A stretch of DNA of 52,244 bases from Candidatus Zymogenus saltonus (GTDB lineage Bacteria; Desulfobacterota; Zymogenia; Zymogenales; Zymogenaceae), in the NCBI GenBank assembly GCA_016929395.1, contig JAFGIX010000033.1, forward strand, positions 1-52,244, given 5' to 3'. The position numbers and the translations under genes are program-made. The notes under the pieces were generated by a model. The model saw only the letters and a list, made by a program, of their open reading frames with translations. It was not told the DNA's origin and ran no database searches. The first letter of the stretch is position 1. Every line of letters starts with the position of its first letter. This document shows, piece by piece, positions 6,553 through 52,244 of the stretch.

Positions 6553-7353
6553 ATGAACAAGAAACTTTTAGCGCTGTTTTTTGTTTTTGCACTGGCCATT
6601 GGCTCGATCATAATGGTGCAGGGATGCGCCCCGAAAGAAGAGGTAGCGGAAGGGACTGGAGAAGTGGTTAAGATTAAGGTAGCCACGGATGCCGCATATC
6701 CCCCGTTTGAGAATGTGGATCCGACATCGGAGGAGATAGTCGGATTTGACATCGATTTCATGAATGAAATCGCAAAGGCCGCCGGTTTCGAGGTGGAGTT
6801 TGTCAACGTCAACTGGGACGGTATTTTTATCGGCCTGGATGCGGACAAATACGATGCAGTTATTTCCGCTGTCAGCATTACCGACGAGAGGAAGGAGAAA
6901 TACGACTTCTCCGATCCCTACTACGCCATCAGCCAGGCACTTATTCTCAACAAAGCGGATGCCGAGAGCATCAAGGTCCTTGACGACCTGGCCGGAAAGA
7001 AAATCGGTGCGCAGATCGGAACCACCGGCGCCATCTTTGTCGGCAAGAACGACAAGGTGGAGCTCGTGAATTACGACGATAACGCACTCGCCATCGAGGC
7101 TCTGGTCAGGGGAGACGTCGTAGCGGTTGTCTGCGATCATCCCGTCGCTTTCGACTACGCCCTGAAGAACGAGGCCTACAAAGAGAAGCTGGTAGTTGTC
7201 AACGCCGATCTGAACAAGGGCGATCTTGAGGACTACGGAATAGTCGTCAAGAAGGGCAACGCCAAGGTCCTCGATCTGATCAACAAGGGACTGGCGGAGG
7301 TCAAGAAGGGCGATACGATTTCCACTCTTGAGAAGAAGTGGGGTATCAAGTAA
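6553..7353 (+). CDS. Amino-acid ABC transporter substrate-binding lipoprotein
   Basis: This is a family 3 (polar amino acid) extracellular solute-binding protein of about 266 residues. The N-terminal signal peptide MNKKLLALFFVFALAIGS ends in a lipobox VQGC, so the mature protein should be lipid-anchored. Typical SBP_bac_3 motifs are AAYPPFENVD, GFDIDFMNEIAK, DAVISAVSITDERKEKYDFS and DLAGKKIGAQIGTTGA. I take the ATG at 6553, preceded by GGAGGAGAA (6540-6547), rather than an upstream in-frame ATG at 6496, because the lipoprotein signal starts there. It heads an operon with a permease, an ATPase and a second binding protein. The ligand is a polar amino acid by family only. Confidence 0.92.
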   Translation: MNKKLLALFFVFALAIGSIIMVQGCAPKEEVAEGTGEVVKIKVATDAAYPPFENVDPTSEEIVGFDIDFMNEIAKAAGFEVEFVNVNWDGIFIGLDADKYDAVISAVSITDERKEKYDFSDPYYAISQALILNKADAESIKVLDDLAGKKIGAQIGTTGAIFVGKNDKVELVNYDDNALAIEALVRGDVVAVVCDHPVAFDYALKNEAYKEKLVVVNADLNKGDLEDYGIVVKKGNAKVLDLINKGLAEVKKGDTISTLEKKWGIK

Positions 7354-7368
7354 AAAATGCCCTATAAT

Positions 7369-7401
7369 TTCGGCGGGGTTGAAAGGCCCCGCCGAACTTT
7401 T
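7369..7401 (+). terminator. Strong hairpin between binding protein and permease genes
   Basis: TTCGGCGGGG (7369-7378) pairs perfectly with CCCCGCCGAA (7387-7396) around an 8-nt loop, followed by CTTTTA. It lies 15 bp after the binding-protein stop. Such hairpins often raise the amount of binding protein relative to permease by partial termination or 3'-end protection; that role is inferred. Confidence 0.7.
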
Positions 7402-7434
7402 ATGTAGAATCAAAAATCGCAAAAGAACGGCAAA

Positions 7435-9288
7435 ATGACCACAATTAGTCTTCTTGAAATCTCTTTCTTCGTGTTCTGGCTCTGGACCCTGATGGATTTG
7501 ATAAATCAGGAGGGAATGAAGGAGATAAGGAAGGCCAGACTTGTTATCTTTCACACATTTCTGGGATTCATCGGAATAGCATTCTACTTCTTCCTTTTGA
7601 TCTCATCCTTTGCGTCAAAAGAGGTTTTCGGTCTGACGGGAACCGTCACAAATATAAACGGGCCCGCATTCAGGCTGATTACGGAGAGGCTTAGGCCCTC
7701 TCTTTTTATCGCATTCGTCATCATAATAATCTTCCCGGCCGTGGCGGCCCTTAATTTCAAATTCAAGGGGAATCTCAGGGCAAAACGCTTCCTTGCTATT
7801 ATCAACATCTTTGAGTTACTATCCATCCTGACGAGTTTTATCTATATCCTTGTTATCGCTTCTTATATCGATAAGATCAACGGTACCATGCCGTTTCCAT
7901 ATCACGTTAACGATGTGGCGTATAGTCGTGCAAATGTGTTCGGCCTGGACTTCGGAATTACCACGCTCAGCTTTACGTTCAACTTCGTCCTCTACCTGTT
8001 TGCCATAACGATTATCATCTGGTTTATCTCTACGTTGTACTATATCTTTTTATTAAAGATACCGATAACCAGGAGAAAGGTGGTAATCCTCAATACCGAT
8101 GAGATCAGAAAACTGACGTCGATGGCGAAAATATACAAAAACGCCCTCTATTTTCTGATCCCCATCGCCCTTATATTAATGAGAAATGTATGGGATTGGA
8201 TGACCGGCTTTAGGATCAAAAAGTTCTTTATCTCGGTCGGAGACGGACTTTTAGACGGCGGCTCCAGTATAACGGAATCGGCCGTTAAAAACGGCGAATC
8301 AGCCGCGAATTTATGGTCACGGCTCTTCGAATGGATATCAGGAAAGATCCACATCCTGAAGGTCGGGCTTGGCTCGTTGATATCTGGTATCGGAGACAAC
8401 TTTTTTGCAGGACATCCAGGCGACGTTTTCTCGGCGGGCTTTGTAATAGCTGTGATCCTGATTGTATTCGCATTAGTTGTGTGGCTCCTCCTTCGATACA
8501 TAAACCTTGACCTTGAAGCGATGCAGGAGACGCACGAGGTCCAGATGGGCGGCCTCAGGCACTCCTTTTATATGAACTTCTTCGATGCGTGGAAGGTCTC
8601 CCTCTTCGCCGCCCTGACGACCATACTGCTTCTCGTCTACTTTTACAACAATCCCTATTTCAACGTTCTAAAATTTGTCAGATCCGGGATCGTCATCACC
8701 TTTGAGGTCACCGTGGCCGCGATGATCCTCTCTTTGATATTGGGTCTTCTGGCGGGGCTGGGCAAGCTTTCCAACAACGCCTTTATAAAAGGGATCGCCT
8801 CGGTTTACATCGAGGTCATAAGGGGCGTGCCGCTCCTCGTTCAGTTATTCTACATACACTTCGGCCTCGGGAGATTTTTTCAACTTCCACCCCTCGGATC
8901 GGCTATCTCCGCCATGGCCATATGTTACGGGGCCTACATGGGGGAGATCTTTAGGGCGGGAATACAGTCTATATCCCACGGGCAGGTCGAGGCGGCGAAG
9001 TCCCTCGGGATGACCAACTACCAGACCATGAGCAAGGTCATCCTACCCCAGGGATTCAAGGTGATTTTGCCGCCCATCGGAAACGAGTTCATCGCCCTTT
9101 TGAAGGATTCCTCCCTCGTATCGATCATAGCGGTTGCCGATATCCTCCGAAGGGCCAGGGAGTATGTGTCGATATACTTCATCCCCTTTGAGGCCTACAC
9201 CCTTGTGGCCCTGGTCTATCTCGTGATAACTCTGGTGCTCTCAAAGGTTGTGTGGAACATGGAAAAGATAATGGCTACGGACGAGTAG
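7435..9288 (+). CDS. Amino-acid ABC permease with extra N-terminal membrane domain
   Basis: The C-terminal ~210 residues (about 405-617) are a normal HisM/GlnP-type permease: [20 protein letters not shown], then the EAA cytoplasmic loop [20 protein letters not shown] and [19 protein letters not shown]. Before it are about 400 residues not found in ordinary permeases of 220-250 residues. They include several hydrophobic helices (about 5-25, 38-60, 85-103, 120-145, 175-205, 238-255, 340-360) and a region near 275-330. The reading frame is continuous, so this is a fusion or N-terminal extension. The gene follows the binding-protein gene and precedes the ATPase. The N-terminal domain's role is unknown; it may couple the carrier to the binding proteins or sense something in the membrane. 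Confidence 0.9.
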
Positions 9289-38900: not shown

Positions 38901-40049
38901 TTATTCTCTAATATTTAGCTTATATTTTTTCCCAAGTGGCTGGTATTCAAATCTCTCGGCGACATCATCCCTTGTGTTGTTCAGATAACCGCTTCCCTTC
39001 AGCTCATTCAGATCATCGGGATAACGTCCATGTATCAAGTAGAAGGCAGAGAGGGCGGATTTTACGTTGGCCGTTTCCATTGACCGCTGTGAATTTTCAA
39101 AGTCGATCTTGCTTGCATTCGAGATGGTGAAGTTTGATACTATTCTCGGGTAAGAGACCGCAAGTATCAAAAAAAGGGAAAACACGATTCCTCCGAAAAC
39201 AACATAGAAAGATAGATTGGTGGTTTCTTTCTCGGAGGGTGTTGTTACCTTCTCCTCCTCAATTTCAAAAGCGATGTCTATCAGGGTCTTGTCCATCAGC
39301 GACGCCAGGGCCTTGGTCGTCTCAAATTCTCCGAACCTGCTGACGTTGATAAGGTCCCTGACGGTCATGGTTTCGTTCACGAGGTCAAAGACCTTCCTCT
39401 CTTCCGCCGACATGACCATTTTACCCTTTAAAGGCTTATCGTCCTCGTAGAAAAGGTCATCATTCGAGTCTTCGGAGTCCGTCGTCTTCCAGAATTTTAT
39501 TTCTTCCTCGGCCCCCGGCATCTTTTCAAAGACGAGGTTATAGGAATAAATCTTTTCCTTTATCTCCGGCCACTCGTCGGTCATCCTAAGGCTGTCCATT
39601 AGAAAATGCTCGGTGTTGATCAGCTCAAAGGCCCTTTTGTCGTAGTTTATAAGGCGCTGCTGGAAATTGTACGTCCCGCTCTTCAGGTTCAAAAGCTTGA
39701 AGATTGTCTCGTGGGTTTGAAGCTTAAGGACATGTCGCAGATCGTTAATGGTTATAATACCCGATTCGATGAGAATGTCCCCTAATTTCTTTAACGTCTC
39801 CTTCTGGATCTCAAGGGCGTTTCTCAGCTGTGACTTGCTCACCATTTTTGCCGTTAGAAGCATCTCGCCGAGAAATTCGTCGATGTGCTTCCGTTTTGAA
39901 TTTGCCGATATTATCATTCCGCTGTCAAAAAGGACCTCGATTTCCGTCCCCTTATCGATAATATTCAAAACGCCGCTCTTCTGCTGTTGGTATAAAAGCT
40001 GGAGGATGTCCACAACCGAGAAGTCCTTTATGTCACCATGGAGTGCCAC
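38901..40049 (-). CDS. DUF4388 (PATAN) membrane protein
   Basis: This 382-residue protein begins with a DUF4388/PATAN domain ([40 protein letters not shown]). It continues with a stretch like the N-terminal domain of GspE/MshE ATPases ([18 protein letters not shown], then [19 protein letters not shown]). A single transmembrane helix near residue 280 ([20 protein letters not shown]) separates it from a small C-terminal part (about residues 310-382). It lies just upstream of phoH in the same operon and downstream of a large TPR membrane protein. It resembles the window's other DUF4388 protein (18416-19387) only in the N-terminal domain. Exact role is unknown. Confidence 0.8.
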
Positions 40050-40066
40050 TTTATAAAGCTCCTTGT

Positions 40067-42049
40067 CTAAATAGTGGAGATTTCGGACTTAAAGAAATCA
40101 CGCTGTGCAATAATATATACGATGACTAAAAAGAACAAATAGACATATAGATTGTGTATCAGAGGAAATCCGAGTGATGATGCGGGATAGACGATTGTCC
40201 CGTTTATGGTAAAAATCTGAACGAGCAAAAATATGTAAAGCGTAAAAAAGATGAATCCCTTTGCGGTCTTGCCTCGATAGATGTTTCCAAATCCCGGAAT
40301 TAAAATATTTACAATCCTGATAATATAACTGCGGCGGGTGGTGACTCTGTCAACGGTCATCCTGAGTCTGGTCTTGGTTTTCGGGTCCACACCCTCGCGC
40401 CTGATGAAGAGGGAAAAGCACCTGTTACAGGCGTCTCTCTTTTCCATGTGGCTGTGGGATTTCAAGAAGAAGGGTTTCCCGCAGAATTTGCATGCCTTGG
40501 AAAATATGTATCTCTTATTAAGTGTGCCTATTACAAACAGGATAACGGCGGCCAGGATTCCAACCACGGGGGCGCTCCTCAGGGTAGTACCTTTCATCAT
40601 GTTCTTCCACAGTTTGTTTGCCAAATCCTTGTTGTCCGTGGAGTTTATCACCCGTTCCCAGAGGACCGAATCGGATATGTCTTCGTCCATGACGACCCTG
40701 TTGATCAGGGCCAGATAATCCGGCTCTATCGCACTTATGTCTATCTCGATTTCGGCAAATTTAGATATGCGATCATGAGAAAGCTCCAGGGCCTTCTCGT
40801 GGTACTTGTCCGCCTCGTCCTGATCGAACTTTATCATGTAGTACTTGAATAGATTGTAATTGGGCGCTACAAGGTTCGGGTTGTTTGATGTCGACTTCTT
40901 ATACAGCTCGAACGCTCCCTCGTAATCTTTTTGTATGAATTTTATGTTGCCGAGATTGTTCAGGGCCTCGGCATAATTTTCGTCTATGTCCAAGGTTTCA
41001 TTGTAGTAGTAGAGGGCGTCGCTCAGGTATCCGGTCTTCTTGTTCAGGAGCCCGAGGGTAAAGAGGGCGTACTTGTCCTCGAAGTTCTCTTCCACCCAGC
41101 TTTTGAGCTTCCTTTCGGCATCCCAGGTATACATGTCGTTTTTTATCTGGACTATCTCATCGGTGGCTTTTATGTGGGTGGAGAGCATCATCGTTGCGGT
41201 GTATTCGAGGGCCACGGGGGCGATAAGCAGAAAAATGTAAAAGACAACGGCGATCTTCTTTTCGGTGCCCGTATAATAAACGAAAAAGAATAAGTTTAAA
41301 AAGAAGAGGATCCATATAAAGCCGAGGTCAAGGGTGGAAATAAAGATCAGAAAAAGGAGGATCAACACGGAAAAAAGCATGGGATGTATCTCCCATCCCG
41401 ATTTTTCCTTGAGGTCGTTTGACAACAGCGGTATATACTTTGCCGCGAGGGTGACGGCAAACAGCATAAACAGTATAAGGATGAAAAACTCCAGACCGAT
41501 AAGGAGATTGCCAAGAAGCGCCGTATATGTGGCAATGTCGGATACGGCGTCCTGGACGCCCTTTACATAGTGATCTGTGATCTCAAACAACTTGTTTAAC
41601 GGATTGTGTCTCCAGAGAAACGAGGCCTTGTAGAAGTGTATCCTCGCAATATCCGGAGAGAGTCTGATGGACTCGTCGATCAATCTCAGGGCCGTTTTTA
41701 AATCAGCCTCGTTTTCCATCATCCTGGACAGCGTGAGGAGGGAGTAGGAGTAGTACGAGACGTTTTTGTCGCCGTAGTTCAGCTTGGTGTTGTACAGCTC
41801 GTCGAGAAAGTAAAAGGCGTCTATCTTGCTCCCCTCTGCCAGCGATGTGAGGAAGCGAAACCAATTCTGATCGTAGCCCTTGAACTCGTCCCTGATGAAA
41901 AAGAACGAGGGTGTGCCCAGGATGTCCAGGTCGCTGATCGTGGTTTTGCTTTCATCGGCGGCTAAAGAGGGGGTCAAGACGAAGATAAAAATAAAAAGAA
42001 AAATCGCCGATTTTGCCAATGGTCTAAAAAAGCCCACTGTCCTCTCCAA
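40067..42049 (-). CDS. Large TPR membrane protein with zinc-ribbon
   Basis: This 660-residue protein has a signal-like N-terminus (AIFLFIFIFVLTPSLA), TPR-like helices (about 60-150), membrane helices near 185-290, and further TPR units (about 315-420; LSDALYYYNETLDIDENYAE is the clearest). After another helix comes a cysteine cluster, CKFCGKPFFLKSHSHMEKRD then CNRC, that looks like a zinc ribbon. The C-terminus has GFGNIYRGKTAKG and three helices, resembling TM2-type ends. I recognise no named family. It heads the minus-strand operon that runs into phoH, pgpH and ybeY, divergent from mazG. The combination suggests a membrane scaffold, but its function is unknown. Confidence 0.75.
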   Translation of the reverse strand: MERTVGFFRPLAKSAIFLFIFIFVLTPSLAADESKTTISDLDILGTPSFFFIRDEFKGYDQNWFRFLTSLAEGSKIDAFYFLDELYNTKLNYGDKNVSYYSYSLLTLSRMMENEADLKTALRLIDESIRLSPDIARIHFYKASFLWRHNPLNKLFEITDHYVKGVQDAVSDIATYTALLGNLLIGLEFFILILFMLFAVTLAAKYIPLLSNDLKEKSGWEIHPMLFSVLILLFLIFISTLDLGFIWILFFLNLFFFVYYTGTEKKIAVVFYIFLLIAPVALEYTATMMLSTHIKATDEIVQIKNDMYTWDAERKLKSWVEENFEDKYALFTLGLLNKKTGYLSDALYYYNETLDIDENYAEALNNLGNIKFIQKDYEGAFELYKKSTSNNPNLVAPNYNLFKYYMIKFDQDEADKYHEKALELSHDRISKFAEIEIDISAIEPDYLALINRVVMDEDISDSVLWERVINSTDNKDLANKLWKNMMKGTTLRSAPVVGILAAVILFVIGTLNKRYIFSKACKFCGKPFFLKSHSHMEKRDACNRCFSLFIRREGVDPKTKTRLRMTVDRVTTRRSYIIRIVNILIPGFGNIYRGKTAKGFIFFTLYIFLLVQIFTINGTIVYPASSLGFPLIHNLYVYLFFLVIVYIIAQRDFFKSEISTI

Positions 42050-42174
42050 AAAAAATATATTTCATATTTGTATTAATCTATCATTAATTTTGTTGGAAAT
42101 CAAGTCATTATTTTTTACCTTGCCTTTTTCGATTATCTGTCCTATCTTAGTTGAGTTAGATTTCAGGGAGACAG

Positions 42175-42957
42175 ATGAATTTCTACGGACTGGTTGACCT
42201 GATGGCGAGGCTCAGGTCTCCCGAAGGGTGCGCCTGGGACAGGGCGCAGAAGATCGAAGACCTGAGGCCCTATATAATGGAGGAGGCGATGGAGCTCGTC
42301 TCCGCCATCGATTCGGGAGACGAGAAAAAGATCAGGGAGGAGCTGGGAGACCTCCTCTTCGAGATAATCTTCGTGACGAAAATCGAGGAGGAAAAAGGGT
42401 ATTTCAAAATCGATGACGTGATCTCCGCCATAGCCGAGAAGATGATCGAGCGACACCCCCACGTCTTCGGAGATGGCTTTGCTGACGGAAAAGCCCCCAC
42501 GAAGGAGGAGGTAAACAAGAGGTGGGAAGAAATCAAGGCCGAGAAGAGGGGAGGGGGGTCGGTCCTCGACGGCGTCTCCGAGGAGCTTCCCGCACTATTG
42601 ATCGCCGAAAAATACGGCAGGAGGGCGAGCGACGTCGGCTTTGATTGGGAGGATGTGCCGGGCGTTATCGAGAAGATCGAGGAGGAGATAGCCGAGCTCA
42701 AGGGGGCGAAGGCCGAGGGCAGCCAACCCGAGGTCGAGGAGGAAATGGGCGACCTCCTGTTTTCGGTCGTAAACCTCTGCCGGTTCCTCGGTGTCAACGC
42801 CGAGCTCGCCCTGAGGGGCGCAAACAAAAAGTTTTCCAAGCGCTTCAGGGAGGTCGAAAGCATCCTGAATACGAGGGGAGTTCCGGTCAGTGCGATGAAG
42901 GATATGTCAATCGACCAGCTGGAGGAGCTCTGGCGGGAGGCGAAGGATAAAGAGTAG
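42175..42957 (+). CDS. mazG: Nucleoside triphosphate pyrophosphohydrolase MazG
   Basis: This 260-residue all-alpha NTP pyrophosphatase hydrolyses (d)NTPs to monophosphates and removes aberrant nucleotides. Both MazG domains are seen: LRSPEGCAWDRAQKIEDLRP with EEAMELVSAID and EELGDLLFEIIFVTKIE in the first half (ExxE and ExxD metal ligands), and EEMGDLLFSVVNLCRFLG in the second. Length matches E. coli MazG (263). GGGAG lies upstream of the ATG. The gene is divergent from the TPR gene and is followed 34 bp later by a small membrane protein gene, with no MazEF toxin genes nearby. Confidence 0.95.
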   Translation: MNFYGLVDLMARLRSPEGCAWDRAQKIEDLRPYIMEEAMELVSAIDSGDEKKIREELGDLLFEIIFVTKIEEEKGYFKIDDVISAIAEKMIERHPHVFGDGFADGKAPTKEEVNKRWEEIKAEKRGGGSVLDGVSEELPALLIAEKYGRRASDVGFDWEDVPGVIEKIEEEIAELKGAKAEGSQPEVEEEMGDLLFSVVNLCRFLGVNAELALRGANKKFSKRFREVESILNTRGVPVSAMKDMSIDQLEELWREAKDKE

Positions 42958-42991
42958 ATGTTCAAATTACGGATAAATCCGGGAGATTGAA

Positions 42992-43318
42992 ATGAAAAGA
43001 AAATATATGTCGGCGTTGCTCTCCGGCCTACTCTACCCGGGGGCGGGCCAGATTGCAAATAAAGAATATCTAAAGGGGGGCTTTATCATCTTTTTGTGCA
43101 CGGCCCTCTTTGCCGCATTTATGTGTATCTTGATTATGGGCTACGTCTCGGCGTTCAGCGACAAGGAGATGTTTTACGGGACGGCGTTTGATTTTTTGTT
43201 GGAAGGATTGAAAAGAAGCGGGCAGCCGCTGCTTCTCTCCATCCTGGGGCTGGTCGTTGTTTGGGTCTATGCAATAGCCGATGCCCTGATCTTCGGAAGC
43301 GACGCGGACGAGGCTTGA
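42992..43318 (+). CDS. Small membrane protein, TM2-like
   Basis: This 108-residue protein has three or so hydrophobic helices and begins MKRKYMSALLSGLLYPGAGQ followed by IANKEYLKGG, a motif seen in TM2-type small membrane proteins. Its C-terminus SDADEA is acidic. A similar GFGNIYRGKTAKG motif occurs at the end of the large TPR protein (40067-42049). It is probably co-transcribed with mazG. Function is unknown. It converges with the pentapeptide-repeat gene after 4 bp. Confidence 0.75.
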   Translation: MKRKYMSALLSGLLYPGAGQIANKEYLKGGFIIFLCTALFAAFMCILIMGYVSAFSDKEMFYGTAFDFLLEGLKRSGQPLLLSILGLVVVWVYAIADALIFGSDADEA

Positions 43319-43322
43319 GGGC

Positions 43323-44717
43323 TCAGTCCTTCGTCCGCCTGAACTTGCGGTTCATGGCGAGGAGGAAGAGGGTAATAAAGAGAAGGCCGCAAACGTTTTC
43401 CAACAGTATAACAAAATTCGTTATATTGCTCAGGGGGACTAAACCAGTGTCGAAGCTAACACTTAAATATTTTCCGAGTGCAAGGTTGCTCAGGCTGAAA
43501 TAGAAAGTATTGACAATATCCTCCCAGTTTAAATTCTTAATAAAATCTATTATATTGAAAAAGTTACATTCAAGAGGGCGGCTTGGATCCTTATATTTTA
43601 AACCTGACAGTAGATATAGAGGAATAAAAAGGAAAGGAGTCAATAGTATCCAAAGAAACGCCATTATCGGCTGTTCGCCATAAAGAGAAATGTATTTGTA
43701 GAAAAATAACATTAATCTGGTTATAATACTCTCTCTTGTCCCCTTTTTTCTCATCTCCATTGCGCCCACGAAGAAGTCTCCCGCCTCGTGATACCTGCCG
43801 GTTTTTTCGTAGTTTAAGCGAAGTTGATTATAAATATTTTGTACTTCATAGTGTTCGTTTTCCTTGTCTTTATAAAAAATCCCCGTCTTTTTTAATAATC
43901 TCTTGAAGAAACCCGTTTGAAAAGATTCGTCAAAGAGCATGTTTCTTCTTGTAAATCCTCTGGACTTTCTCCAGAAAACTTCTTTAAAATTTATCTTTTC
44001 GACATTTGCTCTGTTAAATCTCACGTTTTTAAGATTAACACCATCAAAAGTAAGATTTGCTTTTTCTCCAAATTTATAAAAATTACTAAAAATTGCTTTA
44101 GATTTATCTTCAAAGATTTTTTTTGTGAAAAATACATTGACTTCTTTGGAAAGTATTATCTCACCGAAATAAGCTTCTCTAAAGAATTTTGCATCATAGA
44201 AATCTACCCATCTAGAAAAAGTCGCTCCTCCAAAGTAAGCATTTTTAATAAATATTGTTCCCCAGAAGTTAGCACCATCTGAAAATGTCGCATCATTAAA
44301 ATTCACATTATCATAAAAAACCGTTCCCAAGAAAATAGCAACTCCATTGAATATTACATCCCTGAAATCAGTCTTACCAAAGAAACTTGAACGCATTAGA
44401 TCGGCGTCTCCCATAAATTCAGCTTTCCAGAAATTAGCATTTTTAAAATCGAAACCTCCGATTTCTACTCTCAAATTTTCAAAGTCCAGACTCTTTGGAA
44501 ATATAAAACCTATGAATTCATGATCACCCGATTCACATTTTTTTTTAAATTCTTTATAAAATTTGTTTACTTTTTTATTATCTTGCCTGCTGTGGAATAT
44601 GCAATATTTTTTCCCGTTATCATCAGGTTTTTTTATTGAATTATGGGGACATTTATACTTTACAAATCCCTTTTCTTTTGAATGCCAATACTCCTTTTTA
44701 TACTCGCACTTCGCCAT
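43323..44717 (-). CDS. Pentapeptide-repeat membrane protein, AT-rich
   Basis: This 464-residue protein has an N-terminal Cys/His region (CEYKKEYWH... CPH... CIFH) that could bind zinc, then about 20 pentapeptide repeats of the A(D/N)LxX type (about residues 80-265, such as FKNANFWKAEFMGDADLMRS). It ends with two helices (near 350-370 and 440-460) flanking a loop with NTFYFSLSNLALGKYL, which recalls the pore-loop region of ion channels, though no selectivity-filter motif is present. The gene is visibly more AT-rich than its neighbours, with frequent AAA/TTT codons, which suggests recent transfer. No Shine-Dalgarno is obvious. The molecular role is unknown. Confidence 0.75.
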   Translation of the reverse strand: MAKCEYKKEYWHSKEKGFVKYKCPHNSIKKPDDNGKKYCIFHSRQDNKKVNKFYKEFKKKCESGDHEFIGFIFPKSLDFENLRVEIGGFDFKNANFWKAEFMGDADLMRSSFFGKTDFRDVIFNGVAIFLGTVFYDNVNFNDATFSDGANFWGTIFIKNAYFGGATFSRWVDFYDAKFFREAYFGEIILSKEVNVFFTKKIFEDKSKAIFSNFYKFGEKANLTFDGVNLKNVRFNRANVEKINFKEVFWRKSRGFTRRNMLFDESFQTGFFKRLLKKTGIFYKDKENEHYEVQNIYNQLRLNYEKTGRYHEAGDFFVGAMEMRKKGTRESIITRLMLFFYKYISLYGEQPIMAFLWILLTPFLFIPLYLLSGLKYKDPSRPLECNFFNIIDFIKNLNWEDIVNTFYFSLSNLALGKYLSVSFDTGLVPLSNITNFVILLENVCGLLFITLFLLAMNRKFRRTKD

Positions 44718-44855
44718 TTCTAAAACCGCCCTAAATTATTATTTAGATATATACGAAGTATATCCAATGCGGATGGAGGAATCAACAACTTTTTTAGTTG
44801 GGATAAAAGGATTTTGCCCCGCCCGTTCGCAATGGACGGCCCCGGGCAAGACCGC

Positions 44856-45638
44856 CTACAGCTTTTTAAGCCTCTTTTTGATCAGCTTCACGATCTTGTC
44901 GTAGGAGGGGGGCGGGCCGGTGTTGACCGACTTCCCGTCTATGAAGAGGCCGTCGGCGATCCCCCACTCGTTAAGTACATCCCGGTTGGAGGTGTCGAAC
45001 TCCTTGAAGACGACCCTGTCGCCTAACTCCTCTGCGGCCCGCTTAGCCCGCTCGTAGGTCGTGTTCTGGCCAGTGCACCAGCCGTTCACGAACGACGTCA
45101 CCGTGACGACGCCGGGCGCCGTCGGCGGCTTCTTTTTCCTCTTTATCCATCTTGGGGGAGAGGCGTCCCTTTCAAACGATTTCCACAGGAGGACGGCCAT
45201 CCCGTCCCTGTCGGCCTTTGAATATCCATGCTTCTTGAACCAGGAGGCCTTCATCCAGACCGGAATCGCCAGGCCCCACGCCGCCATCCCCTTGGCGCCG
45301 AGTTCTTTTGCGTCCGCCTCCGCCGCCTCGATCAGCGCCCTCCCCATACCCTTCCCCTGGATGTTTCCCGGTCCCTGCTTGTGGCCGTGCACCCATATGC
45401 AGTTTATGAAGTAGAGGCCGCTCCCCTCGATGAAGGATTCCTCTATCGGCAGGTACTGTATCATCCCGCCGACATTGCCGCCGTCGTCCACCGCCAGCTT
45501 CACGCGGAGGCCGCGCCCCCGCGTCTTGTCGAACCACTCCTCCTTTTTAGGAACGCCCTCGATTATCTCGTCCGACCATTCCTCGAGGCAGCAGAGGTAC
45601 AACCGCTTGTGCTCATCGTTAAGGTCGATAACCTTCAT
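44856..45638 (-). CDS. GNAT acetyltransferase with YoaP-like C-terminal domain
   Basis: The first ~150 residues are a GNAT-fold acetyltransferase (motif A GKGMGRALIEAAEADAKELG; N-terminal strand MKVIDLNDEHKRLYLCCLEE). The last ~85 residues form a thioredoxin-like domain with SFVNGWCTGQNTTYERA (single Cys) and FKEFDTSNRDVLNEWGIADG, which matches the C-terminal part of YoaP-type proteins. Acetyl-CoA would be the donor; the acceptor is unknown. It is 260 residues, the length of such two-domain proteins. It lies alone between the pentapeptide gene and a tRNA-Glu, with no evident operon partner. Confidence 0.82.
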   Translation of the reverse strand: MKVIDLNDEHKRLYLCCLEEWSDEIIEGVPKKEEWFDKTRGRGLRVKLAVDDGGNVGGMIQYLPIEESFIEGSGLYFINCIWVHGHKQGPGNIQGKGMGRALIEAAEADAKELGAKGMAAWGLAIPVWMKASWFKKHGYSKADRDGMAVLLWKSFERDASPPRWIKRKKKPPTAPGVVTVTSFVNGWCTGQNTTYERAKRAAEELGDRVVFKEFDTSNRDVLNEWGIADGLFIDGKSVNTGPPPSYDKIVKLIKKRLKKL

Positions 45639-45766
45639 CTCCGAGTCCTCCCGCTATTGAGTATCTATCCTTATACTTCCGTTAAGTTCAAATTGTCAAG
45701 GGGATTATTGTTTTGTCATAGGAGGGTTTTCTTGAAGGAGGTCAGGAATGGATTTCAATATGGACC

Positions 45767-45805
45767 AAAAAAAGGGCCGGCAACATTATTTTATTTTGCC
45801 GGCCC
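45767..45805 (-). terminator. Intrinsic terminator of tRNA-Glu
   Basis: GGGCCGGCAA (45774-45783) and TTGCCGGCCC (45796-45805) form a perfect 10-bp stem with a 12-nt loop. On the minus strand it is followed by seven T (45773-45767). It lies 11 bp beyond the tRNA 3' end. Confidence 0.92.
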
Positions 45806-45816
45806 GGCTTGGGCTT

Positions 45817-45891
45817 TGGTAGTCCCAACGGGGATCGAACCCGTGTCTCCGGCGTGAGAGGCCGGTATCCTAACCGCTAGACGATGGGACC
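45817..45891 (-). tRNA. tRNA-Glu (anticodon CTC)
   Basis: On the minus strand, GGTCCCA starts the acceptor stem and TGGGACT-A-CCA ends it, with the CCA encoded. The D arm is CGTCTAGCGGTTAGGATACC, as in other tRNA-Glu. The anticodon loop CTCTCAC gives CTC (reads GAG), and the T arm has GGGTTCGATCC. The intrinsic terminator follows. Confidence 0.97.
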
Positions 45892-46074
45892 GCGCTTTTT
45901 GGCGAGCTTTTTGGATATGTAATCAATTAATCTACTACAGATTCTATGTTCTTGTCAACGAAAAATATTAAGAAGGGTTGGATTTATTTCATGGCCCGCG
46001 GGAACCTTGAGTGTAAAAGTCAGAGATACTCGTGTGATGAAATCTCGAAAGAAAGGGGTACGAAGGCGCGGCCG

Positions 46075-47040
46075 TTAATCCTCTCCTAAAGCCGGATCGT
46101 CCTCGTATTTATAGGCCCGCTTCCACCTCCTGTGGACCCACCACCACTCTTTCGGGTTCGCAAGGATTATCTCCTCCAGCTCCTCGTTTATCCTCTTCAG
46201 AATGTTGTAGACGTCTTTCTCTTCATCAGATGTCAAATTGATCTTGAGCGGCTTTTTGACGACTATCGTGTGATCCATCCAGCCGTTTCGCCTCATATAC
46301 ATGGGAAGTACTGCGGCGCCTGTTTCGGCGATAAGCTCGGCGGGCCCGGGGGGCATCGTGGCCTTTACGCCGAAGAACTCGACGCCGACGGCCCTCCCCC
46401 GTGTGTCCTGATCGAGGGCCACCCAGAGTATCTCCCCCTTTTCGAGCGTCGATTTGGATCTTGCCGCCGCCTCGTTTCTCGGCTTTACCGGAATAACCTT
46501 CAGCTTGATCTTTTCCTGGAGCCTCCGAACGTAGTTTTTGACCCTCTCGTCCTTCGGCTCCTTGTACAGGAAGGATATCGGATAACCCCTCAGGGAGAGG
46601 GAGCAGAGGAGGAGCATGAAATTGCCCACGTGGCTCCCTACGGCAAGGACGCCCCTCCCGCCTTCGAGGGCCTCCTTGAGATATTCTTCCCCCTCGATCG
46701 GTATCTCCTCGGCCACTTCAAAAGGGGGTCTCAGGTAATATCCGAACTCCAAAAACATCCTGACAATGTGTTTGATGCTCGACCTCGCTATCGCCTTGAG
46801 CTCCTTTCGGGTGAGTTTATCCCCGTAGACGAGCCTCAGGTTTCTCATCGCTTGAAATCTCAGGGAAAGGCCGAGCATCCAGATGATAAGGCCCGTGGCC
46901 TCGGTCAAAAAGATGACCAAAAAAGCCGGCATCTTGAAGAAGAGGTAAAAGACGCAGATTGAGATATAAGATAAAATATACTTAAATGGATTGAAGGCTT
47001 TCTTTTTTCTTTCTTCGTTCTGCATGGCTTTTGGGCTCAA
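46075..47040 (-). CDS. Lysophospholipid acyltransferase family (LpxL/HtrB-like) 1
   Basis: This 321-residue protein belongs to the LpxL/HtrB late lipid A acyltransferase family. It has an N-terminal membrane segment (about residues 20-55), the active-site region LAVGSHVGNFMLLLCSLSLR (His near residue 136), VALDQDTRGRAVGVEFFGVK, and the family C-terminus EWWWVHRRWKRAYKYED. The catalytic HX4(D/E) dyad of the family is not intact: the residue five after His is Met. It is the last of three tandem paralogues. The acyl donor (acyl-ACP or CoA) and acceptor (lipid A or another lipid) are not evident. Confidence 0.85.
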   Translation of the reverse strand: MSPKAMQNEERKKKAFNPFKYILSYISICVFYLFFKMPAFLVIFLTEATGLIIWMLGLSLRFQAMRNLRLVYGDKLTRKELKAIARSSIKHIVRMFLEFGYYLRPPFEVAEEIPIEGEEYLKEALEGGRGVLAVGSHVGNFMLLLCSLSLRGYPISFLYKEPKDERVKNYVRRLQEKIKLKVIPVKPRNEAAARSKSTLEKGEILWVALDQDTRGRAVGVEFFGVKATMPPGPAELIAETGAAVLPMYMRRNGWMDHTIVVKKPLKINLTSDEEKDVYNILKRINEELEEIILANPKEWWWVHRRWKRAYKYEDDPALGED

Positions 47041-47131
47041 TATCTACTGGTTATTGTAGTCTACTATTTATCGTAAGCTATTAGCTATCGTAAGCGAAAA
47101 AACAGCTCAACTTTGAACGGGACAGGGGCTG

Positions 47132-48079
47132 TTACTGGTATTTATACGAATTCTTCCACCTGTTGTGAATCCACCACCACTCCGTCGGATTATCGAGGAT
47201 CATCTCTTCGATTATTTGATTCACTACCTTTAGACCGGAGTAGGTGTCCTCATCCATATTTCCGGTGGTCTCAAGGGTGAACGGCTTTTTTATGGTTATT
47301 TTGTGTTTGAGCCAGCCGAGACGCTTTATGGTCATGGGAAGAATCATAGCATTGCTCCAGAGGGCCAAAACCGCCGGCCCCTTGGCGGTCGAGGCCTTTA
47401 CGCCGAAGAACTCCACGCCGATACTACCCTCCCTCACGTTCTGGTCGGCGGCAATCCACAATATTTCCTTCTTTTTTAAGACCCTGAGGCTAAACTTTGT
47501 GGCCCTGCTTCTCGGTTTTACCGGAATCGGGTTCAGGTTTAGATTCCTCATAAGCTTCCAGAAATGGCCGGCAAAGCCCTTGTCCATCGGCTCCTTGTAG
47601 ACGAACGATATTGGATATCCCTTGATTGTAAGGGCTGTAAGCATCAGAAGAAAATTCCCGGTGTGGCTTCCGAGGGCCACCACCCCCTTGCCGTTCTCCA
47701 GGGCCTTTTCTATGTACTCTTCCCCCTCGATATCGATGTCTTCTACAATTTTCAGATAATTTTTCATGATAGGCGGGCATTCAAGGAAGGTCCTGATGAG
47801 ATTTTTCATGCTCTCCTTTGCGATCGCCTTTATCTCCTTTTCGGTCAGGGAGCTTCCGTAGACGAGCTTCAGGTTATTGAGGGCAACCCTTCTTAAACTG
47901 GTCCCGAACAGCCAGATAAGAAGGCCGAAGAGATCCGCCCCTTTCCTTATTACCGGCTCCGGGAGTCCAATCATGATCCAAAACAGGGGCTTTGCGGGCC
48001 AGGAGTAGATTCTTCTGGTGAAGGCCTTGATTTTCCTCTTCAGGTGGTATGTCCTTTTAGACCTCTTCTTTCTTGACAT
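47132..48079 (-). CDS. Lysophospholipid acyltransferase family (LpxL/HtrB-like) 2
   Basis: This is the middle paralogue, 315 residues, basic and membrane-associated. Its active-site region reads VALGSHTGNFLLMLTALTIK and so carries the conserved His but Leu in place of the acidic partner. Other shared motifs are PISFVYKEPMDKGF, KPRSRATKFSLRVLKKKEIL, IAADQNVREGSIGVEFFGVK and EWWWIHNRWKNSYKYQ. It is 91 bp upstream of paralogue 1. A 480-bp gene-free interval separates it from paralogue 3, so it may have its own promoter. Confidence 0.85.
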   Translation of the reverse strand: MSRKKRSKRTYHLKRKIKAFTRRIYSWPAKPLFWIMIGLPEPVIRKGADLFGLLIWLFGTSLRRVALNNLKLVYGSSLTEKEIKAIAKESMKNLIRTFLECPPIMKNYLKIVEDIDIEGEEYIEKALENGKGVVALGSHTGNFLLMLTALTIKGYPISFVYKEPMDKGFAGHFWKLMRNLNLNPIPVKPRSRATKFSLRVLKKKEILWIAADQNVREGSIGVEFFGVKASTAKGPAVLALWSNAMILPMTIKRLGWLKHKITIKKPFTLETTGNMDEDTYSGLKVVNQIIEEMILDNPTEWWWIHNRWKNSYKYQ

Positions 48080-48559
48080 CTCTCTTCACTTGACTCCGTT
48101 TTTCTATTCAGAAACCGAAAATGGAAACAGGGGCGTAAAAAAATGCAAATTCTCAATTGCCTCAATAGAGTCAATTTATGATTTATATATCTGCAGTTTA
48201 CAGATTTTCGGATAATTTTTAAAGGGGAAAGTGGTGATTTGATAAAAAAATAATGGGATAGGTCTATAATATCCTGTATCTAAAATATTTTATAAGATCA
48301 GGGCAATCCGCGTATTCAATATAGGCCCACCCCTGCCGGAATGGCATCTAATGAAAATCCTAAAAGACCGCCGACTTTTTTTTAGTTCATTTCATTTCAG
48401 GTCTTTATTTAATCGAGAGTCTCTCCCGGCATAAGACCACAATCCCGTTGTTATAGTATTATAGGCTAAAACATTTTTTGCAAACGGGTACGTTCGACCT
48501 GTTTATATTGTACCTATTTCCCCATCGTCCGGGTCTGCGGCAAAACAATTTTTTAGTTA
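48080..48559. other. 480-bp gene-free interval
   Basis: The stretch is AT-rich, with no credible gene, tRNA or strong hairpin. The only reading frames are shadows of the neighbouring acyltransferase gene. It could hold a promoter for paralogue 2 on the minus strand, but no clear boxes were identified. Confidence 0.5.
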
Positions 48560-49510
48560 CTACGACATCTCCTTCGTTTCCTCGTCGCTGTATCTGTATG
48601 CCCGCTTCCACCTCCTGTGCACCCACCACCACTCTTCGGGATTTTCGGTTATCTCCTCTTCGAGCACCCCGTTCATCCGCTTCAAGTTTTTGTAGATATC
48701 CATATCCTTGTCGCCGGAATTTACGAGCTTTACCGGCTCCTTGACGATCAGGGTATGTTTCAGCCAACCCTCCCTTTTCGCGTAGATCGGGAGTACCGTT
48801 GACTCCGTCCTCTGGGCCAGGATAGCCGGCCCCCTGGATGTGCCGACCTTTACGCCGAAGAACTCGACCCCGATGTCTCCGAACTTCGTGTCCTGATCGA
48901 GGGCGAGCCACAACATCTCTCTGTCTCTCAATGCCCTGAGGGACCGCTTTGTGGCCTCGCTTCTCGGCTTGACGGGTATGGGTTTGAGCCCGAGGTTTTT
49001 GTTCAGCTCCCTGACGAAATCCCTGAAATTCTCGTCTTTGGACTCTTTTAAAATATAGTGAAGGGGATATCCCTTCTGAGCGAGGGACAAAATCAATAGG
49101 AGGAAGTTGCCCACGTGACTTCCGAGGATCAGGATGCCCTTATCTCCTTTCAGCGCCTCTTTGAGATGATGCTCTCCCTCGATCGGCGTATCTTTTGTTG
49201 TATAACTGGGTCTTATGATAATCGTGAGCTCCGACATCATCCTTACGATGTTTTTCATGCTCTCCTTTGCGATTATCTTTATCTTATCATCGGAGAGGGT
49301 GTTCTTGTAGGCAATTCGGAGGTTTTTTATCGCCATCCTTTTTAAGGGGAACGCAAAGTTGGCAAAACCCCAGGCTATTATCTCGGATAACACGCGAATC
49401 CACGACTCCGGAACCTTGAGCAACAGCGCAAAGATCGGTCTCACCGGCAGGGCCGCTATCTTATTGAAATAGGATTTGACAATCCTCCTCGGCTTTCTCT
49501 TTCTGGTCAT
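48560..49510 (-). CDS. Lysophospholipid acyltransferase family (LpxL/HtrB-like) 3
   Basis: This is the third paralogue, 316 residues. Its active-site region is LILGSHVGNFLLLILSLAQK: the His is kept, and the acidic residue is Leu. Motifs in common with the others are PLHYILKESKDENFRDF, KPRSEATKRSLRALRDREML, LALDQDTKFGDIGVEFFGVK and EWWWVHRRWKRAYRYSDEE. The start ATG directly follows the stop codon of the acyl-CoA-synthetase-like gene (TAA-ATG), so the two are translationally coupled. Function is inferred as acyl transfer to a lipid; the loss of the acidic partner makes activity uncertain. Confidence 0.85.
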   Translation of the reverse strand: MTRKRKPRRIVKSYFNKIAALPVRPIFALLLKVPESWIRVLSEIIAWGFANFAFPLKRMAIKNLRIAYKNTLSDDKIKIIAKESMKNIVRMMSELTIIIRPSYTTKDTPIEGEHHLKEALKGDKGILILGSHVGNFLLLILSLAQKGYPLHYILKESKDENFRDFVRELNKNLGLKPIPVKPRSEATKRSLRALRDREMLWLALDQDTKFGDIGVEFFGVKVGTSRGPAILAQRTESTVLPIYAKREGWLKHTLIVKEPVKLVNSGDKDMDIYKNLKRMNGVLEEEITENPEEWWWVHRRWKRAYRYSDEETKEMS

Positions 49511-51031
49511 TTATGCAAAGGACTCGGTTAGGGTTTTTTTATCAACCTTCCCGGGTCCCACAAGGGGAAGGGCGTCGATGAATTTGACCATCTTTGGAAC
49601 CTTATAGTCCGCTATCCTCTCCCGGCAGTGTTTCATGACCTCCTTATCGGTCAAGTCGATTCCCGGCCTCTTTACTACGACCGCCGCCAGTACCTCGCCC
49701 CGCTTTTCGTCCTGTATCCCCAGAACCGATGCCTCCATTATATTCTCGTGGCCTAGGAGGATGTTTTCCACCTCCGCCGGAAATACGTTAAGCCCCCCTG
49801 TTATTACTATTTCGCTGGAGCGGCCGAGGTGATAGACGAAGCCGTCTTCATCGATCCTTCCGAGGTCGCCCGTATGGAACCAGCCGTCCTTGATGCATTT
49901 CGCCGTCTCTTCCGGCTGCTTGTAGTAGCCCTTCATCACCTGGGGTCCGGATACCACGATCTCGCCCAGCTCGCCCTGCTTGACCTCGTTTCCGTCTTCG
50001 TCGACGAATTTCATCTTTACGCCGCCCACGACCTTGCCGATGGAGCCCATCTTTTCATCGGCGTATTTAAGGGGAAGGAGGGTCAACAGCGGAGACGTCT
50101 CGGTCAGGCCGTATCCCTGGATAACCTTGAGGTGCGGTATCCTCCGACGGTACTCCTCCATCAGCTTCTTAGGCACGCTCATCCCCATCATCGACACGTA
50201 TTTCAGCGATGAAAGGTCGTAGCTCTCCAGCTTGGGATCGGCGAGCATCATCTGCATTATCGGAGGCACGCTGTTGAAAAGCTCGACCTTCTCTCTCTCC
50301 ACAGTCTTCCATACTGTATCCGGGCGCCAGCTTTCAAAGATGACGAGGCTGTTTCCGAATATGAGCTGGTTGTTGACGAGGATCGGGCCCGTTATGTGGC
50401 TCATCGGGAGGATAACCGCCATTACGGTGTTCTCGGTGTTGTACTCGGGGATTATCTCGTGCAGAGTGTTCGGGAAGAGGTCCAGATGTCTGTACTGGAG
50501 GATGACCCCCCTGGGCCTCCCGGTGCTTCCGGAGGTGTAGAGATAAAGGGCCTCGTCCTCCTCGGATGTCTCCGCGTCCGGCTCCTTTGGATCGCCGCCG
50601 GACAAGAACTTCTCGTAATCAATGTCCGGAGCCTTCTCCCCGTCGCCGATGAGCACAATCTTTTCAACCGAGGGATAATTATCCCCCGCAGCTTTTATGG
50701 CTTTCAGCATGTCCACCGTAGTGAAGATCATTTTAGCATCGGAGTCGATGATAATACTCTTGAGCTCATCGCCCGATGTGCGAAAATCTATGGGGACACA
50801 GATTACGCCTATCGAGGTTGCGGCAAGGTATATTTCAACAAATTCCGGTATGTTCGGGAGGTAGACGAATACCTTGTCGCCCTTTTTTATTCCCGATGCG
50901 GTGATTTGCGATGACAGCTTAAAGGCCCTATCCTTGAGCTGTTTGAAGGTGATTCTCCTGTCACCGTAAATAAGGGCCGTTTTGTCGGGGAGCCTGCCTG
51001 CCATCTTATTTAATTGTTTCTTGACGTTCAT
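49511..51031 (-). CDS. AMP-dependent acyl-CoA synthetase-like ligase
   Basis: This 506-residue protein belongs to the ANL superfamily of acyl-activating enzymes. The P-loop is YTSGSTGRPRGVIL, A5 is GYGLTETSPL, A7 is WFHTGDLGRIDEDGFVYHLG, followed by RSSEIVITGGLNVFPAEVEN and a catalytic Lys near the C-terminus (GPGKVDKKTL). It forms acyl-AMP then acyl-CoA (or acyl-ACP). The acid chain length is not evident. It is the first gene of an apparent operon with acyltransferase paralogue 3 (no gap), so it may supply activated acyl groups. GAGGA lies about 7 nt before the ATG. Confidence 0.92.
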   Translation of the reverse strand: MNVKKQLNKMAGRLPDKTALIYGDRRITFKQLKDRAFKLSSQITASGIKKGDKVFVYLPNIPEFVEIYLAATSIGVICVPIDFRTSGDELKSIIIDSDAKMIFTTVDMLKAIKAAGDNYPSVEKIVLIGDGEKAPDIDYEKFLSGGDPKEPDAETSEEDEALYLYTSGSTGRPRGVILQYRHLDLFPNTLHEIIPEYNTENTVMAVILPMSHITGPILVNNQLIFGNSLVIFESWRPDTVWKTVEREKVELFNSVPPIMQMMLADPKLESYDLSSLKYVSMMGMSVPKKLMEEYRRRIPHLKVIQGYGLTETSPLLTLLPLKYADEKMGSIGKVVGGVKMKFVDEDGNEVKQGELGEIVVSGPQVMKGYYKQPEETAKCIKDGWFHTGDLGRIDEDGFVYHLGRSSEIVITGGLNVFPAEVENILLGHENIMEASVLGIQDEKRGEVLAAVVVKRPGIDLTDKEVMKHCRERIADYKVPKMVKFIDALPLVGPGKVDKKTLTESFA

Positions 51032-51494
51032 AGCTTATCCTCTAAAACTTTTTCTATTAAAAATTTATTATAAGCCGGATAAGCCATAAGTATAACCTAA
51101 AAAGTTGGAAAATTCCATAAAAATTTTCTATTTTTCGATTTTTCAGTAACATTTTTGGTTTTTTTTGTATTCACGGTGGAACGTTTAGGGAATTAGATGG
51201 GTCTTATGCCTAATTACAAAAAGAGAACGATCAAAGGCAACGGAGAATGGACTTTTTAAAACCTTCCCTACAAGAGATGCCGACTGCGGCATTAATCGAT
51301 TTTTTGAAAAAACTCGCCCCCTTGGGAAACTGGAATCCGGATGGGTATGAAAAGCCCTCGGATTGGATAAAACTAAGCCTTTGAATCGGCCTTGATTAAG
51401 GCGCTATTGTTATGATGGAAGAGATACATGTCCACGTTCTATTATGCGGGTTCCCTTTTAAGCCCATTCGTAAGGCCACCTGCGGGGAGCTGAA
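51032..51494. other. 463-bp interval between PadR-type and acyl-CoA synthetase genes
   Basis: AT-rich, with no credible conserved gene. A 45-codon plus-strand frame (51247-51384, MDFLKPSLQEMPTAALIDFL...) has protein-like composition but no good Shine-Dalgarno. It may be a small gene or a relic. Confidence 0.4.
51247..51384 (+). CDS. Possible small ORF, 45 residues
   Basis: The frame starts MDFLKPSLQEMPTAALIDFL and ends PSDWIKLSL. Its residue mix, with Trp, Pro and an amphipathic beginning, looks more protein-like than random. A GGAG lies only 1 nt from the ATG, so initiation is doubtful; the frame stays open upstream to 51214 without another start. No family is recognised, and it could be a decayed gene end. 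Confidence 0.2.
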   Translation: MDFLKPSLQEMPTAALIDFLKKLAPLGNWNPDGYEKPSDWIKLSL

Positions 51495-52016
51495 TTATTT
51501 GCCCTTTAGGGATTCGATCAAGTCCTTTAAGAACTCCAGCTCGGTCTGGGCGAGTCTCCTGTTGTGAGAGTAGATTACCTCTTCGCTGCTCTTGGGATCT
51601 TTGCCCCTGGCCTCCTTCTCGGAGCGTTTGAGGATGTAGATGAGCTTTCTCAATTCCTTGGATCTGTTGGATAGGTGTTCGATGGCTTCGTCGGGTTCGA
51701 GAAGGTCAATGAAATAAAGGGAGATGTCGATATTCAAAAGCGGCCTCTTGTTGTTGTTCATATTGTCAATGAGGAGATTTTTCAGCTCAAATTCCCCCTT
51801 TTTTGTCAGAGAGTAGAGGTTCTTTTGGGGCCTCTTGGAGTCTGAGACGGATTTATGGATCACACAACCATCCTCTTCCAGTTTATTCAGCGTGTAGTAG
51901 ATTGAGGTGTTGTCAACGTTAATGAGATTGGTAAGTTCCTTTTCGATAACCTTGCGAAGCTTGTATCCGTGGTTGTCTCCCCGCATAAGGAGTCCCATAA
52001 GCACGATTCTAAGCAT
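51495..52016 (-). CDS. PadR-family transcriptional regulator
   Basis: This is a winged-helix regulator of about 173 residues. The PadR N-terminal domain is clear: MLRIVLMGLLMRGDNHGYKL, then NVDNTSIYYTLNKLEEDGCV (recognition helix) and RPQKNLYSLTKKGEFEL (wing), with a C-terminal dimerisation helix region (about residues 90-173). PadR-like proteins usually repress genes for stress or detoxification. The ATG at 52016 is preferred to a TTG at 52028, since the PadR fold starts right there and GGAAAG lies upstream. An inverted repeat AAGGT-N10-ACCTT (52032-52051) upstream may be its own operator. The target is unknown; the adjacent acyl-lipid genes, 463 bp away, are candidates. Confidence 0.87.
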   Translation of the reverse strand: MLRIVLMGLLMRGDNHGYKLRKVIEKELTNLINVDNTSIYYTLNKLEEDGCVIHKSVSDSKRPQKNLYSLTKKGEFELKNLLIDNMNNNKRPLLNIDISLYFIDLLEPDEAIEHLSNRSKELRKLIYILKRSEKEARGKDPKSSEEVIYSHNRRLAQTELEFLKDLIESLKGK

Positions 52017-52031
52017 TCTTCTTTCCAATAA

Positions 52032-52051: not shown

Positions 52052-52244
52052 GGAGTTAACTTGACATCTTTTTTATCTCCCTTTAATGGGGCCGCAACCT
52101 GTTTATGTGTCTGTTATTGTGCATATCTTCTTGCGGATTGGGGAGATGGAAATAAAAATATTTGGGAATTATAAACGATTTTCCACCAAATTAGTTAGAT
52201 AAGAAACTACAATTTCGAATATATCATCATTATAACGGTTATTA

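Follow-up and report, generated by a model that had tools for sequence, protein, structure and literature searches.

It is unsettled which acid is catalytic in LpxL-type acyltransferases, and relatives point to different residues. In PatA, a phosphatidylinositol mannoside acyltransferase, His126 is bonded to Glu200 and not to the acid of the HX4D motif; the H126A and E200A mutants are dead, D131A retains 37% of the activity, and the authors proposed the same His-acid arrangement for HtrB and MsbB (PMC4792965). In LpxM of A. baumannii (AbLpxM), H122 and D192 lie 2.6 Å apart, and E127 forms a pair with R159 at 2.4 Å (PMC6286764). VexE, the Vi-antigen C-6 β-hydroxyacyltransferase, has a Tyr at the HX4D/E position, yet it is active; the enzyme depends on its His, and mutation of the Asp equivalent to PatA E200 substantially lowers activity (PMC9597891). 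PatA, the AbLpxM structure and VexE favour the downstream Asp/Glu, whereas E. coli LpxL (EcLpxL) favours E137: the activity cost is 3000-fold for E137A and 170-fold for R169A, and only 15-fold for D200A (PMC6286764). Because EcLpxL needs E137 far more than D200, the case for His-Asp catalysis has less force in LpxL than in PatA. Here, we describe three LpxL-like paralogues without the HX4E acid, and the branch of the family to which they belong.

A PadR, ligase and acyltransferase gene group

The window, i.e., the whole stretch of 52,244 nucleotides that was analysed, makes up a complete contig in a genome of 3.76 Mb (G000, the host). Towards its end at 52244, a gene group on the minus strand is transcribed in the order PadR, ligase, P3, P2, P1. 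The first gene of this conserved group encodes a PadR-family transcriptional regulator (51495..52028; PF03551, E=2.2e-15), followed by a FadD/PRK06187-like acyl-CoA ligase with AMP-binding and AMP-binding_C domains (49511..51031; PF00501 E=4e-87, PF13193 E=6e-19), for which the best NCBIfam match was PRK06187 at 446 bits, slightly below the cut-off of 476. The acyltransferases are P3, with the motif SHVGNFL (48560..49510; PF03279, Lip_A_acyltrans, E=5e-37), P2, with SHTGNFL (47132..48079; E=1e-38), and P1, with SHVGNFM (46075..47040; E=1e-43), and they are mutually 44–46% identical. P1 probably starts at the ATG at 47025 rather than at the TTG at 47040, since its orthologue in G001 aligns from MQNE. 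The ligase TAA (49511–49513) immediately precedes the P3 ATG (49508–49510) with 0 bases between them, and P2 and P1 are separated by 91 bases. Between P3 and P2, there is a 480-base stretch without a gene call (48080–48559). A tRNA-Glu (CTC) gene (45817–45891) adjoins the downstream end of the cluster.

The first-pass annotation had reported three LpxL-like genes with Met or Leu at the acid position, coupled to an AMP-ligase through a TAA-ATG junction, and both observations were borne out: five residues after the His, P1 has M, and P2 and P3 have L. Its C-terminal WWW-HRRW motif is present as WWWVHRRW in P1 and P3, and the middle copy, P2, reads WWWIHNRW.

Family membership was assessed by profile and by fold. 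All three proteins matched PF03279 with 128–150 bits against a gathering threshold of 22.3, over model positions from 4, 15 or 23 to 295. An AlphaFold model of P3 (pLDDT 88.4) retrieved LpxM (5KNK, E=1e-17) and PatA (5OCE, E=1e-14) in Foldseek, with no credible match besides these two. The LpxL and LpxM equivalog scores were not reached (at most 102 of 297.8 for TIGR02207, 54 of 336 for TIGR02208 and 124 of 248 for PRK08419), and neither the HX4E acid of these enzymes (EcLpxL E137, AbLpxM E127; M, L, L in P1–P3) nor their Arg (R169/R159) is found in P1–P3. P1–P3 are members of PF03279 by profile and fold, outside the LpxL and LpxM equivalogs.

Active-site residues and descent of the acid-less branch

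The active site was compared in an alignment of 159 homologues from the phylum, the genome_contigs set and E. coli LpxL/LpxM. The His (EcLpxL H132 column) is present in 159/159, and the block-3 position (EcLpxL D200 column) is Asp in 158/159 and Glu in one. The HX4E acid (EcLpxL E137 column) is missing from 55 of the 159 homologues, and in these acid-less proteins the His and the block-3 Asp are both invariant (55/55). Of the 104 acid-bearing proteins, 100 have Arg169, the partner of E137, as against 10 of 55 acid-less ones (joint counts 100/4/10/45; Fisher p=4e-25, with relatedness left uncorrected), a correlation that is not phylogenetically independent because loss in one clade represents few events. 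On the tree, the acid state changes at least three times and the Arg 10 times. Across the aligned sequences, the Glu-Arg pair is mostly lost jointly, the His-Asp pair never. At H+4, the acid-less proteins have F in place of W. They also share a short insertion, which reads K-P-R in P1–P3 and is absent from about 97 of the 104 acid-bearing proteins.

P1, P2 and P3 all retain the His and the block-3 Asp in this alignment, and two alignments concur in placing Q, M and N, respectively, at the Arg position. The key positions in P3 are H132, L137, N170, the insert K181-P182-R183 and D205; when a profile of 13 relatives is aligned with PatA and LpxM, this D205, the invariant Asp of the ‘ALDQ’ motif, falls on PatA E200 and LpxM D192. 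At the sequence level, P1–P3 have counterparts of the EcLpxL H132/D200, AbLpxM H122/D192 and PatA H126/E200 dyads, and would work like PatA and VexE as far as active-site residues tell. The E of ‘VEFFG’, where E. coli has Pro, was also considered as a displaced acid and dropped; this E occurs only in part of the branch.

The first-pass annotation had taken the catalytic acid to be gone. The HX4E acid and its partner Arg are indeed both lost, but the acid to which the His is bonded in PatA (E200), and its LpxM counterpart D192, correspond to the block-3 Asp that all three proteins keep, so that the claim does not hold in its original form. An acid elsewhere in the site and an active acid-less homologue, which that annotation had itself named as evidence against it, are largely what was found, namely the block-3 Asp and VexE with its Tyr. 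Since E137 matters in EcLpxL, the loss of both this acid and R169 nevertheless represents a real remodelling.

The acid-less rows nearest the window fall into one set of 58 (99*), 54 of which are acid-less; the other four rows of the set are acid-bearing, come from the family of the window itself and sit on a long branch. In a constrained tree test from which the four long rows were left out and the motif columns removed, the tree uniting the 54 acid-less rows still included scored 69.9 log units higher (p-AU 0.92). Because the constrained tree scores better, an ancient acid-less branch of single origin is compatible with the data. The nine copies from the family, P1–P3 among them, group within the acid-less branch as a single starred set, which rules out three independent losses in the window. 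The ‘triplication with conserved loss’ of the first reading is thus a loss inherited from an acid-less ancestor, with the expansion coming afterwards.

The acid-less motif is not a chance feature, since orthologues from the same genus (L042), 65% identical to P1 and 67% to P2, keep the M/L motif, and since the acid is absent from the 55 homologues noted above, which cluster on the tree. For P1 and P2 against these orthologues, dN/dS was approximately 0.13–0.15, at a dS near saturation. The acyltransferases are not decaying, because they are under purifying selection; together with the invariant His and Asp, this rules out decay, as the earlier reading had also held.

Gene neighbourhoods and proposed function

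The arrangement PadR–ligase–acyltransferase(s) is kept in 4/4 genomes of the family (G000–G003, with 3, 2, 1 and 3 acyltransferase copies), and the PadR protein in the equivalent place in G001, G002 and G003 is 64–81% identical. Outside the family, a ligase adjoins an acid-less acyltransferase in G004, G137 and Desulfofustis (L090), and lies 1.7 kb away in L062. Of the 11–21 ligase matches in each of the genomes of L062, L065 and L090, the one located near the acyltransferase resembles the window ligase most. Within the genome_contigs set, a ligase was found within 5 kb of 3/7 acid-less and 0/73 acid-bearing loci (p=4e-4), a count that leaves out a single acid-bearing gene with a weak match of 75 bits next to it. 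The coupling to an acyl-activating enzyme proposed from the window is thus conserved. Many acid-less members have no adjacent ligase (f31, f39), so that donor coupling is not general in the branch. G002 and G003 each have, on another contig, one more close homologue of this ligase, 48–51% identical to that of the window (G002:C9:40145-41641; L206:1747-3261); for the G003 copy, no neighbouring acyltransferase was found.

A different layout is seen in family f11 and in L065: PadR is followed by the ligase, here fused to an ABC permease (PF00528), then by genes for NMT1-like binding proteins and for an ABC ATPase, and the acid-less acyltransferase is convergent to these genes. The fusion is one continuous frame of approximately 765 amino acids with the permease at its C-terminus (L201:10590-12884, L200:3480-5765, L065:6769-9060, L198:2623-4908), an apparent uptake-plus-activation protein. 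In f11, judging from these uptake genes, the acid may come from outside.

On balance, we consider it probable that the window holds a PadR–ligase group with three acid-less acyltransferases that are active His-Asp enzymes, supplied with acyl-CoA by the ligase and acting on an envelope (glyco)lipid. It is likely that P1–P3 are functional; the branch to which they belong, within a known family, is widespread and unstudied. By analogy with its family, the ligase would convert a free carboxylic acid, a fatty acid or similar, to acyl-CoA. In P1–P3, the His as base and the block-3 Asp would then let a hydroxyl of the envelope (glyco)lipid attack the thioester, perhaps with one paralogue per position or chain, and PadR would control the ligase and acyltransferase set. 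The loss of Glu-Arg, together with the Lys-Pro-Arg loop after the strand that precedes the Asp strand, could give a different acceptor or donor site with catalysis kept. A bolder version is tentative: the acid-less branch might be a mechanistically distinct subfamily in which the Glu-Arg pair that LpxL/LpxM need is replaced, perhaps by the Lys-Pro-Arg loop, and in f1 and f11 it might serve a regulated pathway that imports or activates a specific carboxylic acid and places it on an unrecognised envelope lipid. The first-pass annotation had suggested a distinct acyl-transfer system rather than decay; the absence of decay and the conserved ligase coupling agree with this, whereas the loss of a catalytic acid does not stand.

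The nature of the acceptor separates the main alternatives. P1–P3 could be the ordinary late (secondary) lipid A acyltransferases of this phylum, which use acyl-ACP and can dispense with the HX4E acid, with the ligase serving fatty-acid scavenging rather than dedicated donor supply, an explanation that we regard as possible but doubtful. The host has lpxC, lpxK and waaA and so makes lipid A; in its waaA (Kdo transferase) frame, Glycos_transf_N is fused at its N-terminal side to a PAP2 phosphatase domain, PF01569 (L279:5259-7127, G000:C76). Lipid A is one candidate acceptor because acid-less relatives adjoin LPS genes: lpxC in G033 and G077, a kdsB/waaA/kdsD-like group in f39, and a gmhA-like SIS gene in L284. 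In G033 and G084, moreover, the sole PF03279 protein is acid-less. The argument that this protein must acylate lipid A is weakened by a DUF374 (LpxJ-like) gene in both genomes, and for this reason lipid A is not proven as the acceptor. The host likewise has one DUF374 protein, and among its eight PF03279 proteins the only acid-bearing one (C85; GHIGNWE, HERD) is the more obvious LpxL candidate; further acid-less copies form two tandem pairs, on C70 (LSNFV/MVDFM; L038:5808-6752 and 7338-8240) and C23 (GNFQ/GSFQ; L040:7005-8000 and 8217-9107). Nor was any lpx or kds gene present among the scanned window genes beside the cluster, and the significant, conserved ligase association also speaks against routine lipid A acylation.

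An acceptor other than lipid A, such as a phospholipid, a glycolipid or a polysaccharide anchor, is a further alternative that we also regard as possible but doubtful; it would receive an acid of an unusual kind, imported or aromatic, after activation by the ligase. PatA and VexE acylate sugars other than lipid A with an equal His/acid dyad, LPLATs occur together with an activating enzyme in aryl polyene clusters, and several acid-bearing and acid-less PF03279 paralogues can occur within one genome. The f11 ligase-permease fusion, near NMT1-like binding proteins and an ATPase, suggests acid uptake, but it belongs to a family other than that of the window, its permease family spans many substrates, and no acceptor-specific gene accompanies the cluster in f1. 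That P1–P3 are catalytically dead proteins with a structural or regulatory role is very improbable: the textbook HX4D/E acid is absent from all three, and E137A costs EcLpxL 3000-fold (PMC6286764), but the His and block-3 Asp persist in every acid-less protein, dN/dS is approximately 0.15, several genomes have an acid-less protein as their only PF03279 member, and VexE provides a precedent (PMC9597891).

Comparison with known systems

Among the papers searched, none describes the acid-less branch or the PadR-ligase-LpxL gene group. The aryl polyene systems resemble the group in placing an activating enzyme, the acyl-ACP synthetase ApeH, beside an LpxL-like domain (ApeJ) and an LPLAT (ApeD). 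ApeJ differs from P1–P3 in retaining the Glu (H-E-A-D), and no ketosynthase, ACP or dehydratase gene was detected among the ORFs examined by Pfam at 38901–52028, in a contig that ends just past PadR at 52244, or in the orthologous loci L042, L046 and L050; an aryl-polyene origin was rejected on these grounds.

The lipid A secondary acyltransferases LpxL/HtrB and LpxM/MsbB (AbLpxM, 5KN7) share with P1–P3 the full-length PF03279 domain, the top fold match and the His with block-3 Asp. Unlike them, P1–P3 lack both the HX4E acid and the Arg paired with it, carry F instead of W at H+4, contain the three-residue K-P-R insertion, score far under the NCBIfam cut-offs, and are encoded beside a ligase rather than in an lpx operon. 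PatA shares the fold and the H126-E200 type of dyad, and its acyl-CoA donor would fit the ligase, but it retains the HX4D acid and R164, and its PIM acceptor is mycobacterial. VexE is like P1–P3 in that the HX4D/E acid is replaced, by Tyr, with the His and the Asp equivalent to PatA E200 in place; it differs in its TPR domain, its capsule locus and its use of an acyl-ACP donor on UDP-GlcNAc. Set beside these systems, the window brings to light a gene group that combines a ligase with acyltransferases, and a large natural branch that has lost Glu-Arg but never His-Asp supplies evolutionary evidence on the catalytic acid of this family, and enzymes with which to test it.
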